Assembly: GCF_002355475.1 (NCBI RefSeq)
Contig: NZ_AP014862.1
Location: forward strand, 3,472,001-3,536,000
Length of the DNA stretch: 64,000 bases
From: Pseudomonas furukawaii
Lineage (GTDB): Bacteria; Pseudomonadota; Gammaproteobacteria; Pseudomonadales; Pseudomonadaceae
Direction of reading: 5' to 3'
Below are positions 41,340 to 55,233 of this stretch, piece by piece; positions within the stretch are counted from its first letter, which is position 1, and the number at the start of each line of letters is the position of its first letter. The notes beneath the pieces are model-generated. The model worked only from the letters and a program-made list of their open reading frames with translations, was not told where the DNA came from and did not search any database. Both the position numbers and the translations under genes were made by a program.

Positions 41340-44300
41340 GTGACCGAGACAACCATTCGAAGCGTGTGCCCTTACTGCGGCGTCGGCTGCGGCATCCTCA
41401 TGCAGGTGGCACAGGGGCGCGTGGTGAAGGTCTCCGGCGACAAAGGGCACCCGGCCAATTTCGGCCGACTCTGCACCAAGGGCAGCACCAGCCTCCAGGC
41501 CATCACCGACTCCGGGCGCATGGAACACGCCTACCTGCGCGACGACCGCTCCCACGACCCGGTGCAGACGCCCATGGCCAGCGCCATCGCCGCCACCGCC
41601 TCGCGCCTTCGCGGCATCCTCGACGCGCACGGGCCGGACGCGATCGCCTTCTACGTCTCCGGGCAGATGTCCCTGGAGGCCCAGTACCTGGTGAACAAGC
41701 TGGCCAAGGGCTTCATCGGCACCAACCAGGTCGAGTCCAACTCGCGCCTGTGCATGGCCAGCGCCGGCAGCGGCTACAAGCTGTCGCTGGGGTCCGACGG
41801 CCCGCCCGGGTCCTATGAGGATTTCGACCGCGCCGACCTGTTCTTCGTCATCGGCGCCAACATGGCCGACTGCCACCCCATCCTCTTCCTGCGGATGATG
41901 GACCGGGTCAAGGCCGGGGCGAAGCTGATCGTCGTCGACCCCCGACGCAACGCCACGGCCGACAAGGCCGACCTCTTCCTGCAGATCCGCCCGGGCACCG
42001 ACCTGGCCCTGCTCAACGGCCTGCTGCACCTGCTCCACGCCAATTGCCACACCGACCCGGCCTTCATCGCCGAATTCACCGAGGGCTGGGACGCGATGCC
42101 GGACTTCCTCGCCGACTACAGCCCGGAGCGGGTGGCGGCACTCACCGGCCTCGACGAAGCCGCCATCCGCCAGGCCGCACGCTGGATCGGCGAGGCCGGT
42201 GACTGGATGAGTTGCTGGACCATGGGCCTGAACCAGAGCACCCACGGCACCTGGAACACCAACGCCCTGTGCAACCTGCACCTGGCCACCGGCGCGATCT
42301 GCCGCCCCGGCAGCGGTCCCTTCTCCCTCACCGGCCAGCCCAACGCCATGGGCGGTCGGGAAATGGGCTACATGGGCCCCGGCCTGCCCGGCCAGCGCAG
42401 CGTGCTGGCGGAGGACGACCGCGCCTTCGTCGAGCGGGCCTGGGGCGTGCAGCCGGGAACCCTGCACACCCGCCTGGGCGGCGGCACCATCGCCCTCTAC
42501 GACGACATGGCCGCCGGCAAGGTGAAGGCCTGCTGGATCATCTGCACCAACCCGGTGGCCAGCGTGGCCAACCGCAGCAAGGTGATCGAGGGACTCCAGG
42601 CCGCCGAACTGGTGATCACCCAGGACGCCTACCTCGACACCGAGACCAACCGCTACGCCGACATCCTCCTGCCCGGCGCCCTCTGGGCCGAGGCCGAGGG
42701 CGTGATGATCAACTCCGAGCGCAACCTGACCCTCATGCAGCAGGCCGTCGAGCCCCCCGGCGAGGCCATGGCGGACTGGCGCATCATCGCCGAGGTGGCC
42801 TGCGCCATGGGCTTCGCCGAGGCGTTCAGCTACACCTCGGTGGACCAGGTGTTCGACGAGATCAAGGCCTTCCACAACCCCGGGACCGGGTACGACATCC
42901 GTGGCGCCAGCCATGACCGCCTGCGCCGGGGCCCGTTGCAATGGCCCTGCGCCGATGAGGAAAGTCCCGACCGCCAGCCGATCCGCTACCTCAACGACGG
43001 CGTCAGCCAGTCCCTGCGCCTGCGCGAAGATGGCGGCCTCCCGCGCCTCAGCTTCGCCACCGCCAGCGGCAAGGGCCGGTTCTTCCCCCGGCCGCACCTG
43101 GACCCTGGCGAAATGCCGGACGCGGACTTTCCCTTCGTGCTCAACACCGGGCGCCTGCAGCACCAGTGGCACACCCTGACCAAGACCGGAAAGATCGCCA
43201 CCCTCAACAAGCTCAACCCCGGCCCCTTCGTCGAAGTACACCCCGACGACGCCGAAGCCCTGGGCGTGCGCGACCGGGACCACCTGGAGATCCGCTCACG
43301 GCGCGGCCACGCGGTGCTGCCGGTGGTGGTCACCGATCGCGTGCTGCCCGGCGGCTGCTTCGCCCCCTTTCACTGGAACGATGTGTTCGGCGACAACCTG
43401 GCGATCAATGCCGTGACCAGCGACGCCATCGACCCCATCTCGCAGCAGCCGGAATTCAAGTTCTGCGCCGTCAGCCTGCGCCGCGTCGACCTGATCGAAC
43501 ACCGTTTCCTGGAGACGTCCGCCGCCGAAGACGCTCCGCCCCCCGCTTCCCAGCTCCAAGAGGCCTCTTCCATGTCGCGTATCGAAGCCTTCGCCGCCCT
43601 GGTCGGTGTCGGAACCGGCACCCCGCCCCCGCTGAACGAGCGCGAGCGCACCTACATGGCCGGATTCGTCAGCGGCCTGCGCGCCAGCCCCGCCGGCGGC
43701 GTTCCCAGCCTGCCCGCCCACGCCCCCTTGGGCGAAACCACGCGGCTCTGGCTGGACGGCATGCTCGCCGGCGTCTTCAGTCGCCTGGACCCCGTGCCCC
43801 CCCGCGCGGACCAGCCGGCGACCGCCGATGCCACCCCGGTGACCCTGCTCTGGGCCTCCCAGACCGGCACGGTGGAGAGCCTGGCCGAACGCTTCGCCGC
43901 GCGCCTGTCCGACTCCGGCTTCGCCGTGCGTCTCGCGCCCATGGCGGACGTGCCCGTGGCCGAACTGGCCGACACCGACAACCTGGTGCTGCTCACCAGC
44001 ACCTTCGGCGACGGCGACGCACCGGACAACGGCCAGGCCTTCTGGGATGCCCTCAAGGCCAGCCAGGAACGCCTGGAACCCTTGCGCTACGCGGTGCTGG
44101 CCCTCGGCGATCCCAACTACGACCAGTTCTGCCAGCATGGCCGCAACCTCGACCAGCGCCTGGCGGAGCTGGGCGCCACCCGCCTCTGCGAGCGCCGGGA
44201 TTGCGACACCGATTTCGAGGATAGCGCCGAGGCCTGGCTGGCGGACCTGCTGGCCGCCCTGCGGCCGGGAACCGACGCCCCGGCGCCCGCAGCGGTGGAA

Positions 44301-45416
44301 TCCACCCCGGCCGCGGCCAGCAGGGAGCGGCCCTTCGCCTCGCGCCTGACGACCAACCTGCGCCTGAACCCGGCCGGCGCCAGCAAGGACACCCGGATGT
44401 TCGCCCTGCAACTGGGGGATTCGGGACTGACCTATGAAGCCGGTGACGCCCTCGGGGTCTGGCCGCGCAACTGCCCGGAGCTGGTGGAGGAAGTCCTGCA
44501 ACTGGCGCGCCTCGACGGCGAACAGCCGGTCAGCGTCGCCAAAGTGGGCGATGTGCCCCTGCGGGAAGCCCTCAGCCGCCACTACGAGATCGCCCGCCCC
44601 AGCCAGGAAGCCCTGGCGCTGATCGCCGAACGCAGCGGCGACGCCGACCTCCGGGCACTGCTCGGCCCGCGCAAGGACGAACTCAAGGACTGGCTCTGGG
44701 GGCGCCAACTCGCCGACGTGCTCCAGGCCTGCCCCACCGCCCTGTCCGCCGACGACCTGCTGGGCAGCCTCAAACGCCTGCAACCTCGGCTCTACTCCAT
44801 CGCCTCCAGCCCCAAGGCCCACCCGGACGAAGTCCACCTGACCGTGTCAGCGGTGCGCTACGGCCGGCGCAAGGGCGTCGCCTCCACCTTCCTCGCCGAC
44901 CGCGCCGACGGCGGCGACGTCCCGGTATTCGTGCAGCCGTCCCGGCACTTCCGCCTGCCGGAAGACAATGACCTGCCCGTGGTGATGATCGGTCCGGGCA
45001 CCGGCATCGCCCCCTTCCGGGGCTTCCTCCAGGAGCGCCGCGCCCGGGGCGCCCGGGGCCGCAACTGGCTGTTCTTCGGGGAGCAGCACGCCGCCACCGA
45101 CTTCTACTACCGCGACGAGCTGGGCGCCCTGCAGCAGGACGGTCTGCTCACCCACCTGAGCCTCGCGTTCTCCCGCGACCAGGCGGAGAAGATCTACGTG
45201 CAGCACCGCATCCGCGAACAGGGCGCCGAGCTCTGGCGCTGGCTGCAAAACGGCGCCCACCTCTACATCTGCGGCGATGCCAGCCGCATGGCGAAGGACG
45301 TGGACCTGGCACTGCGCGACCTGGCCCGGCAGCACGGCGGCCTCGACGACGACCGCGCCGCCGAATACCTGCAAGACCTCGCCCGGCAGAAGCGCTACCT
45401 GCGGGACGTGTATTGA
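41340..45416 (+). CDS. nasA: Assimilatory nitrate reductase fused to CysJ-like flavoprotein
   Basis: The 1358-residue fusion starts with GTG behind GGAGG. Residues 1-740 are a molybdopterin oxidoreductase: the 4Fe-4S site [12 protein letters not shown] (Cys10, 13, 17; fourth Cys near residue 46 in RLCTKGS), then SRLCMASAG and FHWNDVFGD. The C-terminal half is a flavodoxin domain ([15 protein letters not shown], about 837), a CysJ-type FAD domain ([12 protein letters not shown], about 1150) and an NADPH domain ([18 protein letters not shown], about 1219). Electrons would pass from NADPH through FAD and FMN to molybdenum to reduce nitrate to nitrite in the cytoplasm. Nitrite reductase genes are not adjacent. 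It converges on metE across the repeat array. Confidence 0.93.
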
Positions 45417-45421
45417 TCGGC

Positions 45422-46971
45422 GCGGACGGGGACAGGGCGCCGGCGCAGGCTGTAGGGTGCGCTGCGCGCACCGCGATCACGGCTTCGAGGTTTCCCGGTG
45501 CGCACGGGGCACCCTACGGATGAGGTACGCGCTCCGGGCCGCCGCAGGGTGCATTGCCCTCAGGCGAACTCGGCCCGCAGTTGCTGGGCCGCCGCCACAG
45601 GCCGTAGGGTGCGCTGCGCGCACCGCGATCGCGGCTTCGAGGTTTCCCGGTGCGCACGGCGCACCCTACGGATGAGGTACGCGCTCCGGGCCGCCGCAGG
45701 GTGCATTGCCCTCAGGCGAACTCGGCCCGCAGCGGACGGGGACAGGACGCCGGCGCAGGCTGTAGGGTGCGCTGCGCGCACCGCGATCGCGGCTTCGAGG
45801 TTTCCCGGTGCGCACGGCGCACCCTACGGATGAGGTACGCGCTCCGGGCCGCCGCAGGGTGCATTGCCCTCAGGCGAACTCGGCCCGCAGCGGACGGGGA
45901 CAGGGCGCCGGCGCAGGCTGTAGGGTGCGCTGCGCGCACCGCGATCACGGCTTCGAGGTTTCCCGGTGCGCACGGCGCACCCTACGGATGAGGTACGCGC
46001 TCCGGGCCGCCGTAGGGTGCATTGCCCTCAGGCGAACTCGGCCCGCAGTTGCTGGGCCGCCGCCACAGGCCGTAGGGTGCGCTGCGCGCACCGCGATCGC
46101 GGCTTCGAGGTTTCCCGGTGCGCACGGCGCACCCTACGGATGAGGTACGCGCTCCGGGCCGCCGTAGGGTGCATTGCCCTCAGGCGAACTCGGCCCGCAG
46201 TGGACGGGGACAGGGCGCCGGCACAGGCTGTAGGGTGCGCTGCGCGCACCGCGATCGCGGCTTCGAGGTTTCCCGGTGCGCACGGCGCACCCTACGGATG
46301 AGGTACGCGCTCCGGGCCGCCGCAGGGTGCATTGCCCTCAGGCGAACTCGGCCCGCAGCGGACGGGGACAGGGCGCCGGCGCAGGCTGTAGGGTGCGCTG
46401 CGCGCACCGCGATCACGGCTTCGAGGTTTCCCGGTGCGCACGGCGCACCCTACGGATGAGGTACGCGCTCCGGGCCGCCGCAGGGTGCATTGCCCTCAGG
46501 CGAACTCGGCCCGCAGCGGACGGGGACCGGGGCGCCGGCGCAGGCTGTAGGGTGCGCTGCGCGCACCGCGATCACGGCTTCGAGGTTTCCCGGTGCGCAC
46601 GGCGCACCCTACGGATGAGGTACGCGCTCCGGGCCGCCGCAGGGTGCATTGCCCTCAGGCGAACTCGGCCCGCAGCGGACGGGGACCGGGGCGCCGGCGC
46701 AGGCTGTAGGGTGCGCTGCGCGCACCGCGATCGCGGCTTCGAGGTTTCCCGGTGCGCACGGCGCACCCTACGGATCAGGTACGCGCTCCGGGCCGCCGTA
46801 GGGTGCATTGCCCTCAGGCGAACTCGGCCCGCAGCGGACGGGGACAGAGCGCCGGCGCAGGCTGTAGGGTGCGCTGCGCGCACCGCGATCGCGGCTTCGA
46901 GGTTTCCCGGTGCGCACGGCGCACCCTACGGATCAGGTACGCGCTCCGGGCCGCCGTAGGGTGCATTGCCC
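45422..46971. repeat. Tandem array of ten units carrying metE-tail copies and hairpins
   Basis: Ten tandem units start at GTAGGGTGCGC positions 45452, 45604, 45762, 45920, 46072, 46230, 46388, 46547, 46706 and 46864. Each has two roughly 22-bp inverted arms (GTAGGGTGCGCTGCG... and ...CGGCGCACCCTAC) around a 22-base loop, then GGATGAGGTACGCGCTCC and CTCAGGCGAACTCGGCCCGC. The last of these is the 3' end of metE, including its stop. Unit ends are of two kinds. Most join the metE tail to CGGACGGGGACAGG, the sequence found just after the nitrate reductase stop. Two join a longer metE tail to the palindrome. Units 1-3 and 4-6 share a higher-order pattern. The frames inside are not a gene. Confidence 0.95.
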
Positions 46972-49293
46972 TCAGGCGAACTCGGCCCGCAGTTGCTGGG
47001 CCGCCGCCACCATGTTCACCAGGGCCGCCTCGGTTTCCGGCCAGGCGCGGGTCTTCAGGCCGCAGTCCGGATTGACCCACAGGCGTTCCACCGGCACCCG
47101 CTGCGCAGCCTTGCGCAGGAGCTTGACCATTTCCTCCTTGCCCGGCACACGCGGCGAGTGGATGTCATAGACGCCCGGGCCGATCTCGTTCGGGTAGGCG
47201 AAGGCCTCGAAGGCGTCCAGCAACTCCATGTCCGAGCGGGAGGTCTCGATGGTGATCACATCGGCGTCCATGGCCGCGATGGACTCGATCACATCGTTGA
47301 ACTCGCTGTAGCACATGTGGGTGTGGATCTGGGTCTCGTCCCGCACCCCGCTGGCGGTCAGGCGGAAGGCTTCGGCAGCCCAGTCCAGGTACCCCTGCCA
47401 CTCGGCCTGGCGCAGCGGCAGGCCCTCGCGGAAGGCGGCTTCGTCGATCTGCACGATGCGGATACCGGCGGCCTCCAGGTCCAGCACCTCGTCGCGTATG
47501 GCCAGCGCCAGTTGCCTGGCCTGCACTTCACGGGGCAGGTCCTCGCGGGGGAAGGACCACATCAGCATGGTCACCGGGCCGGTCAGCATGCCCTTCATCC
47601 ACTTTGCGGTCAGGCCCTGGGCATAGGTGATCCACTCCACCGTCATGGCCTTGGGACGGCTCAGGTCACCGACGATCACCGCCGGTTTCACGCAGCGGGA
47701 GCCGTAGCTCTGGACCCAGCCGAAGCGGGTGAAGGCGTAGCCGTCCAGTTGCTCGGCGAAGTACTCGACCATGTCGTTGCGTTCGGCTTCGCCGTGGACC
47801 AATACGTCCAGCCCCAGCTTCTCCTGCACCTCCACCGCGTGGCGGATCTCGCTGTGCATGGCCTCGGTGTACTCCGCCTCGGACAACCGGCCCTGCCTGA
47901 ACGCCTGCCGTGCCAGGCGAATGGCCGGGGTCTGCGGGAAGGAACCGATGGTGGTGGTGGGGAACAGCGGCAGGTAGAGGCCGTTCCGCTGGCTGGCGAT
48001 GCGCGTGGCGAAGGGCGACGGACGCTGGCTGTCCTGCGGCTTCAGGGCCGCCACACGGGCCTGCACGGCCGGATTGTGGATACGGGGCGACGCGGCACGG
48101 CTGGCCTGCACGGCGCGGCTCGCGGCCAGGGCGGCGAGCACGTCCGGGGCTTCCGGCTCGCTCAGGGCACGGGCCAGTACCGCGACCTCCTCGCACTTCT
48201 GCACGGCGAAGGCCAGCCAGCTCTTCAGCTCAGCGTCCAACTGGTCTTCGCGGGCCAGGTCCACCGGGCTGTGCAGCAGCGAGCACGACGGCGCCACCCA
48301 GAGGCGATCGCCAAGACGGTCGTGGGCGTGGCGCAGCACCTCCAGGGCCTTCTCCAGGTCGCAGCGCCAGACGTTGCGGCCGTTCACCAGGCCCAGCGAC
48401 AGCACCTTGTAGGCCGGCAGGCGGTCGAGGATGGTCGGGTACTGCTCGGGCGCGCGCACCAGGTCGATGTGCAGGCCATCCACCGGCAGGCCGGCGGCCA
48501 GGCCGAGGTTGTCCTCCAGCCCGCCGAAATAGGTGGCCACCAGCTTCTTCAGCGGCTCCTTCTGCAGCAGGTTGTAGCCGCGCTCGAAGGCGTTCTTCCA
48601 GTCCTGGGGCAGGTCCAGCGCCAGGATCGGCTCGTCGATCTGCACCCACTCCACGCCCTGGGCGGCCAGGCGCTGGAAGATCTGCCCGTAGAGCGGCAGC
48701 AGGCGCTCCAGCAGCTCGAGTTTGTCGAATTCGGCGCCCTTGGCCTTGCCCAGCCAGAGGTAGGTCAGCGGGCCGATCACCACGGGCTTGGCCTTATGGC
48801 CGAGGGCCTGGGCCTCTTCGACCTCTTCGAAGAGTTGCTCCCAGCTCAGGGCGAAGGTCTGGTCGGCGGTGAACTCCGGGACCAGGTAGTGGTAGTTGGT
48901 GTCGAACCACTTGGTTAGCTCCTGCGCGAGAAGCGGCTGGGCGTGGGCACCGCCGCAGCAGCTGTCGCCGCCTTTCGCCCCAAGGGTGCCACGGGCCATG
49001 GCGAACAGGGTCTGCAGGGTCGGCCCGGCCTCGCCCTGGCCACGGAAGCGCTCGGGGATGACGCCGAAGGTCAGGGAATGGGTCAGTACCTGGTCGTACC
49101 AGGCGAAGTCGCCGACCGGCAGCAGCTCGATGCCGGCGTCCTTCTGCACTTGCCAGTGCCGGGCGCGCAGCTCGCGGCCGACGGCGCGCAGGCCCGCTTC
49201 GTCCAGCTCGCCTTTCCAGAAGGCCTCCTGAGCCTTCTTCAGCTCGCGGTCACCGCCGATACGGGGGAAGCCAAGGTTATGTGCCAGTGCCAT
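46972..49293 (-). CDS. metE: Cobalamin-independent methionine synthase
   Basis: The 773-residue protein is full length. The N-terminal beta-alpha barrel begins [20 protein letters not shown], a conserved pterin-binding start; the C-terminal barrel has [15 protein letters not shown] and the zinc ligands in THMCYSEF and NPDCGLKTR. It transfers a methyl group from 5-methyltetrahydrofolate-triglutamate to homocysteine in the cytoplasm. The final codons (QLRAEFA and stop) are copied repeatedly in the downstream array. There is no room for a cobalamin riboswitch upstream (147 bp to the oprC stop); a TTGAG-N5-CTCAA inverted repeat is present instead. The start ATG at 49293 has AGGAG upstream. Confidence 0.96.
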
Positions 49294-55168: not shown

Positions 55169-55233
55169 GTAGGGTGCGCTGCGCGCACCAACAGACCCTG
55201 CGCCGTCATCGCGGTGCGCATGGCGAACCCTAC
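55169..55233. repeat. Solitary palindrome of the metE-array family
   Basis: GTAGGGTGCGCTGCGCGCACC and, inverted, GGTGCGCATGGCGAACCCTAC share their arms with the units of the array at 45.4-47.0 kb. Here the loop differs and the element is single. It shows that the array's hairpin is a dispersed genomic repeat. Confidence 0.75.

Follow-up and report, generated by a model that had tools for sequence, protein, structure and literature searches.

We report that a 64,000-nucleotide stretch of the Pseudomonas furukawaii genome (contig NZ_AP014862.1, positions 3,472,001 to 3,536,000; referred to as the window, whose numbering is used below unless stated otherwise) carries a 1.57 kb tandem array of ten units between two convergent genes, the right-hand one being metE. 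Each unit contains two inverted repetitive extragenic palindromic (REP) sequences, i.e., a REP doublet forming a hairpin (REPIN), together with flanking DNA and the end of metE. The array is a long example of an already described kind, since tandem REPIN clusters that include flanking DNA are known; the copied gene end in each unit is the unusual detail. Very probably it is best explained by a single ancestral REPIN whose interval was duplicated illegitimately and then amplified by homologous events. In what follows, genomes and fetched loci are given by their G and L numbers.

Tandem Repeats Finder (TRF) returned a period of 158 bp, 10.0 copies, 95% matches and a score of 2837 for the array, and alignment of the units gave start-to-start spacings of 152, 158, 158, 152, 158, 158, 159, 159 and 158 bp, which bears out the original prediction, made from sequence alone, of ten units spaced 152-159 bp apart. 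That prediction had the start of the array right and placed its end at 46971, while the array runs to 46992, closing with the 21 nt that form the native 3' end of metE; hence the ten units represent one native interval and nine copies, with nine junctions. When one unit was used as query in a genome search (40 of 105 candidates scored) the other nine were recovered and the array was far beyond chance, and the best matches elsewhere in the genome spanned the REPIN and little beyond it (query positions 18-101 or 31-119 of 158).

The nine junctions are of two kinds. At the seven type-A junctions a metE tail of 21 nt (six sense codons, LRAEFA, and the stop; six junctions) or 22 nt (one junction, after 46200, with T for the usual C) is joined to the sequence directly 3' of the stop codon of the left-hand gene. 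At the two type-B junctions, which follow units 1 and 4, the tail is 39 nt (twelve sense codons and the stop) and its partner is a point 5-6 nt to the left of the GTAG of a REP. The overlap at the junction is 0-2 nt at seven of the nine, a count that is upset by a 1-nt insertion at the junctions entering units 8 and 9. Two kinds of junction had thus been recognised correctly, and so had the presence of a metE tail with its stop in each unit, with the correction that there are nine copied tails (21-22 nt in seven, 39 nt in two) and that the tenth is metE itself. Sequence of metE beyond 22 nt occurs only in the native gene and at the two type-B junctions and therefore two separate illegitimate joins are needed; at least two such joins occurred, as had been proposed.

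The relationships among the units add a further layer. Alignment of the units with one another and with the 3' end of metE showed ten distinct units, differing pairwise by 1-12 substitutions, and tails that match the metE end. A three-unit block of 468 bp is present twice, as units 1-3 and as units 4-6 (the sequences starting at 45422 and 45890 are 99% alike across 300 nt), and variants are common to units 8 and 9 and to units 9 and 10. Unequal exchange or conversion between units fits both the block duplication and the sharing of variants, and the repeated block is what unequal exchange, as suggested originally, or duplication of a block would give. These features also bear on the alternative explanation that the array is an assembly artefact, i.e., a repeat that was collapsed or over-expanded. 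Tandem repeats commonly give copy-number errors and the exact unit count could still be off, but no two of the ten units are the same, variants recur in neighbouring units (8 and 9, 9 and 10), and the assembly consists of two contigs at 100% completeness; we regard an artefact as extremely improbable.

The events could have run as follows. In an ancestor, the space separating the left-hand gene from metE would have held one REPIN of the GTAGGGTGCGC REP family. A first tandem duplication, illegitimate and with hardly any homology where the ends met, would have taken in all of this interval plus 21 nt from the end of metE; a second illegitimate join would have linked 39 nt of metE to a position 5-6 nt to the left of GTAG in a REP. 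Homologous misalignment, by unequal exchange or by slippage on the long hairpins, may then have produced ten units, including the duplicated 468-bp three-unit block. The order of these steps, as well as the ancestor, is our reconstruction.

The original prediction saw a long inverted repeat in each unit, which stands, and missed that this repeat is a REPIN, that it belongs to a dispersed family with its own linked REP-associated tyrosine transposase (RAYT), and that two further arrays exist on the chromosome. The REP consists of GTAG and a stem-loop, GGTGCGC-NNN-GCGCACC (7-bp stem and 3-nt loop). Each unit carries GTAGGGTGCGCTGCGCGCACC and, 24 nt further on, the inverted GTAGGGTGCGCCGTGCGCACC (with one change in unit 1), so that the two REPs have their GTAG ends outward; the same pair is found in all ten units, giving 20 REP matches with at most one mismatch within the array. 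The palindrome with its 5' GTAG, the close inverted arrangement, the joint hairpin that folds in unit 4 and the mainly extragenic dispersal are those of REPINs, and near-identical REPINs lying head to tail with flanking DNA are those of a tandem REPIN cluster.

The genome of P. furukawaii holds 106 matches (50 + 56) to the REP family of GTAGGGTGCGC with at most one mismatch. Of 18 genomes from the genus, P. furukawaii among them, 16 contain the REP (the exceptions are G002 and G011), and a reversed-pattern control gave 0 matches in every genome. We placed 34 non-array REP clusters relative to genes with a rough gene-finder script: no cluster is fully contained in a predicted gene, a few extend up to 16 nt into the end of one, and 10 are between convergent, 23 between codirectional and 1 between divergent genes. 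These numbers include one hand correction (the raw output being 11, 22 and 1), in which L211, beside a RAYT gene that the script missed, was moved to the codirectional class before testing. Divergent sites are scarce, 1/34 clusters compared with 9/50 gene pairs of the window (p 0.044, with the rough gene finder). A lone REPIN of the same REP family is situated at 55169-55233, about 6 kb beyond the start of metE.

A RAYT gene encoding 199 amino acids is located on the same chromosome as the array (G000:C1:3143798-3144394, G000 being the P. furukawaii genome; loci L040/L151) with a REPIN directly upstream. The protein scores 193.4 bits against the NCBIfam profile REP_Tyr_transpos, NF047646 (cut-off 80), and matches E. 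coli TnpArep (4er8) with an E-value of 1.2e-42; the genome has three PF01797 matches, and a protein search gave seven RAYT matches, one of them a short fragment. Out of 82 RAYT matches in the 18 genomes 30 loci were fetched, of which seven belong to the clade of this protein (67% identity or more). The REP (at most two mismatches) is in the flanks of 7/7 clade RAYTs, i.e., that of P. furukawaii and six from relatives, and of 0/23 other fetched RAYT loci (Fisher p 4.9e-7, a statistic that ignores the kinship of the genomes); three of the seven clade loci (L155-L157) carry the GTAGGGTGTGC variant of the REP. The number of REPs follows the clade only loosely, G007 having 157 REP matches and no fetched RAYT of the clade. 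Elsewhere in the P. furukawaii genome, positions 1228-2396 of L038 (G000:C1:984590-987910) hold clusters of a second REP family (GTAGGAGC...), repeated mostly at 74-bp intervals, and among them a RAYT-like reading frame interrupted by an in-frame TAG.

The linkage between RAYT clade and REP raises the alternative that the units were made by the transposase, which would nick single-stranded REPs near CT or CA and rejoin them to a nearby 3' end, such that strand transfer and not ordinary recombination built the array. Cleavage by TnpAREP, 5' or 3' of the REP, is reported at C|T and, for one of the enzymes, at C|A as well (PMC8266576); judged by eye, a C|T marks the type-A junctions when the coding strand of metE is read, and a C|A lies at the type-B junctions, a short way left of GTAG. 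A dinucleotide match at two junctions carries little weight, however, and by eye the other arrays of this REP have no common junction rule: that of L006 has about 10 bp of imperfect homology, that of L192 homology at the REP head, and those of L007 and L197 no clear pattern. We consider transposase-made units an unlikely origin, and the broader proposition that RAYT nicking at REPINs at gene 3' ends actively builds tandem arrays capturing the neighbour's tail and stop is, in our judgement, quite unlikely.

Nine arrays of this REP, the metE array included, were met among the search matches listed, which is not a census and hence means at least nine. The P. furukawaii chromosome has an array of 11.2 x 78 bp (C1 ~500490-501360) and one of 5.6 x 103 bp (C1 ~5415645-5416250), both with convergent neighbours; in the latter (L007:2146-2752) the unit has one REP and a second palindrome (CCCTCTCCCTCCGGGAGAGGG). 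The six arrays in relatives are those of L192 (3.1 x 103 bp), L193 (5.0 x 104), L194 (3.3 x 93), L195 (2.5 x 101), L196 (3.6 x 171) and L197 (2.6 x 150). The L197 array, a REPIN array at 990-1384 in G005, starts right at the stop of that genome's own RAYT gene. L196 (2047-2572), from another genus (G024), is an independent case of gene-tail copying: the upstream gene's final codons and its stop recur with the 171-bp period, an 18-nt stretch ending with this stop being found at 2047 (native), 2208, 2379 and 2550. In L195 an apparent gene start is repeated (native at 1993, copies at 2094 and 2195), where the start codon is a putative reading. Exact-pattern array searches, which are blind to units as long as those at metE, matched only P. 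furukawaii, G013 and G006 of the 18 genomes, and the G013 match, three REPs beside its RAYT (L154, L182), is not counted among the nine. L198, with two REPINs 141 bp apart, showed no tandem array of this REP on inspection and was excluded.

The surroundings of metE were compared with those in relatives, all of other species, and no such array was present at metE in those examined. The 19 metE loci of relatives (15 from the genus; L024 and L027 shortened; G007 had a metE match with no fetched locus and G012 no metE match) had no REP with at most two mismatches near metE in flanks of up to 1.5 kb (0/19), nor was one seen at the left-hand gene in 12 relatives' loci (0/12). In a wider scan at least 80 metE loci were listed, with a best identity of 89%, and the own genome or very near ones may be left out of it; two of the 80 listed (L047 and L054) had a REP with at most two mismatches, which in both lies on the upstream side of metE rather than by its 3' end. 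Among 40 metE loci compared (the 19 of the relatives and 21 of the at least 80 scanned), a search for the left-hand protein gave a single weak match (29.9% over 117 amino acids). Six relatives (G004, G006, G010, G011, G014 and G016) carry the two genes on the same contig; there 217 kb to 3.6 Mb separate them, while in the window they are neighbours at 41340-49293. Of the lineages examined, this one alone thus has the gene neighbourhood and the array.

The left-hand gene encodes a fusion of a molybdopterin oxidoreductase part and a CysJ-like flavoprotein part (Table 1). Its NCBIfam scores for cysJ (590.3 bits), Fdh-alpha (535.0 bits) and NasC (443.3 bits) are all under the curated cut-offs, and the sulfite reductase subunit alpha profile NF004859 scored 438.0 bits (cut-off 432). 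The label nitrate reductase given to it originally is plausible from the build of the protein but tentative, the profile evidence for it being weak.

Table 1. Coordinates of the metE array, its units and the flanking genes in the window.
Feature	Position	Strand	Remarks
Tandem array, ten units	45422..46992		TRF, unit alignment
Unit 1	45422..45580		Native left end, closes with metE tail copy; unit alignment
REPIN of unit 1	45452..45517		REP + 45452-45472; REP - 45497-45517 (one change)
Unit 2	45581..45732		Type-B entry: 39-nt metE tail meets a point 5-6 nt left of GTAG
Unit 3	45733..45890		Type-A junction
Unit 4	45891..46048		Type-A junction; second 468-bp block copy begins
Unit 5	46049..46200		Type-B junction
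Unit 6	46201..46358		Type-A junction, T replacing C
Unit 7	46359..46516		Type-A junction
Unit 8	46517..46675		Type-A junction, 1-nt insertion common to units 8 and 9
Unit 9	46676..46834		Type-A junction
Unit 10	46835..46992		Final 21 nt = native metE 3' end
Fusion gene (molybdopterin oxidoreductase part + CysJ-like flavoprotein part)	41340..45416	+	Convergent left neighbour; stop 45414-45416
metE, cobalamin-independent methionine synthase	46972..49293	-	Source of copied tails; TIGR01371 1095.8 bits, cut-off 929.95

Several observations weigh against a single REPIN duplicated illegitimately and then amplified. An ancestral state with one REPIN between the left-hand gene and metE was not found among the relatives examined; the assemblies of several of these are split into many contigs, in which arrays may have been collapsed or truncated. 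Units 4, 5, 9 and 10 agree at column 125 of the alignment and units 1, 4, 7 and 8 at column 59; these groupings cut across the blocks, and exchange or conversion between units must therefore be assumed. Most of the other arrays do not comprise a whole number of units, and one simple duplication model thus does not fit all of them. Finally, one strain of the species was compared and recent or continuing change in copy number is thus without support.

As to function, the array was originally suggested as a possible mutual barrier to transcription or degradation, and our data do not sustain this. In its full form this alternative holds that selection keeps the array, its hairpins ending or protecting both transcripts, or gyrase binding to it, as to the E. 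coli bacterial interspersed mosaic element BIME-2, where positive supercoils meet. The neighbours are convergent, a long REPIN hairpin folds in each unit, and PMC2817692 reports that BIME-2 binds gyrase and that REPs help Rho-dependent termination. Five of the nine arrays are between convergent, four between codirectional and none between divergent genes (frames assigned by codon-position composition), but 5/9 is not different from the 10/34 of the non-array clusters (Fisher p 0.24). Nor was any intrinsic-terminator-like site (a GC-rich hairpin with a T run) found in 45300-47100 (0, compared with 0.6 in shuffles), and RNA folding of unit 4 is moderately better than that of shuffles: -87.2 kcal/mol as plus-strand RNA (shuffles -76.6, z only -2.63), -81.2 kcal/mol as minus-strand RNA (z only -2.40) and -47.3 kcal/mol as DNA (z -1.91). 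Along with the finding that the relatives examined have no REP beside metE, this makes a selected barrier improbable. Most likely the array has no role of its own and would be a by-product of a REPIN at the 3' end of a gene, and it would be tolerated since both genes are left intact; slight effects on the 3' ends of mRNAs, or on supercoiling in the region where the genes converge, are possible.

The array can be compared with known systems as these appear in the available portions of the literature. For P. fluorescens SBW25, Bertels and Rainey (2011; PMC3116915) described tandem REPIN clusters "including the flanking sequences" and RAYT genes for the REP groups in the genome, both of which resemble the situation here; they inferred "a second mechanism" for the formation of such clusters. 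The largest SBW25 cluster has four REPINs and one REP over more than 700 bp, compared with ten REPINs over 1.57 kb at metE, and the metE array differs from the SBW25 clusters in its two junction kinds, its three-unit block and the coding tail in every unit, no gene tails being mentioned for SBW25 in those portions. For GTAG-type REPs, Di Nocera et al. (2013; PMC3733652) reported large clusters in which singletons or dimers, along with the DNA flanking them, are repeated in tandem; they placed REPs chiefly between genes that are unidirectional or convergent, with overlaps into coding sequence also possible. As an exact string GTAGGGTGCGC is absent from that text and was not found in the other papers searched; PMC2817692 gives a similar REP, GTAGGGTGGGC..., for Haemophilus influenzae. 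Like E. coli BIME-2 the metE array has several tandem units of alternating REPs and is intergenic; unlike BIME-2 its units carry gene-tail sequence, and its REP has a plain stem whereas that of the E. coli REP is bulged (PMC8266576). No description of gene tails in REPIN arrays was found in the titles and abstracts that literature searches listed or in the available parts of PMC3116915, PMC3733652, PMC8266576 and PMC2817692.

The metE array retains traces of its history in two junction kinds, a block duplication, ten distinguishable units and a linked RAYT in the same genome, and together with the gene-tail array of L196 it provides concrete loci where arrays built by recombination and arrays built by RAYT might be distinguished. 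If RAYT nicking did build such arrays, REPIN families would gain a second, array-building mode of amplification, which would give rise to length-variable loci at gene ends.
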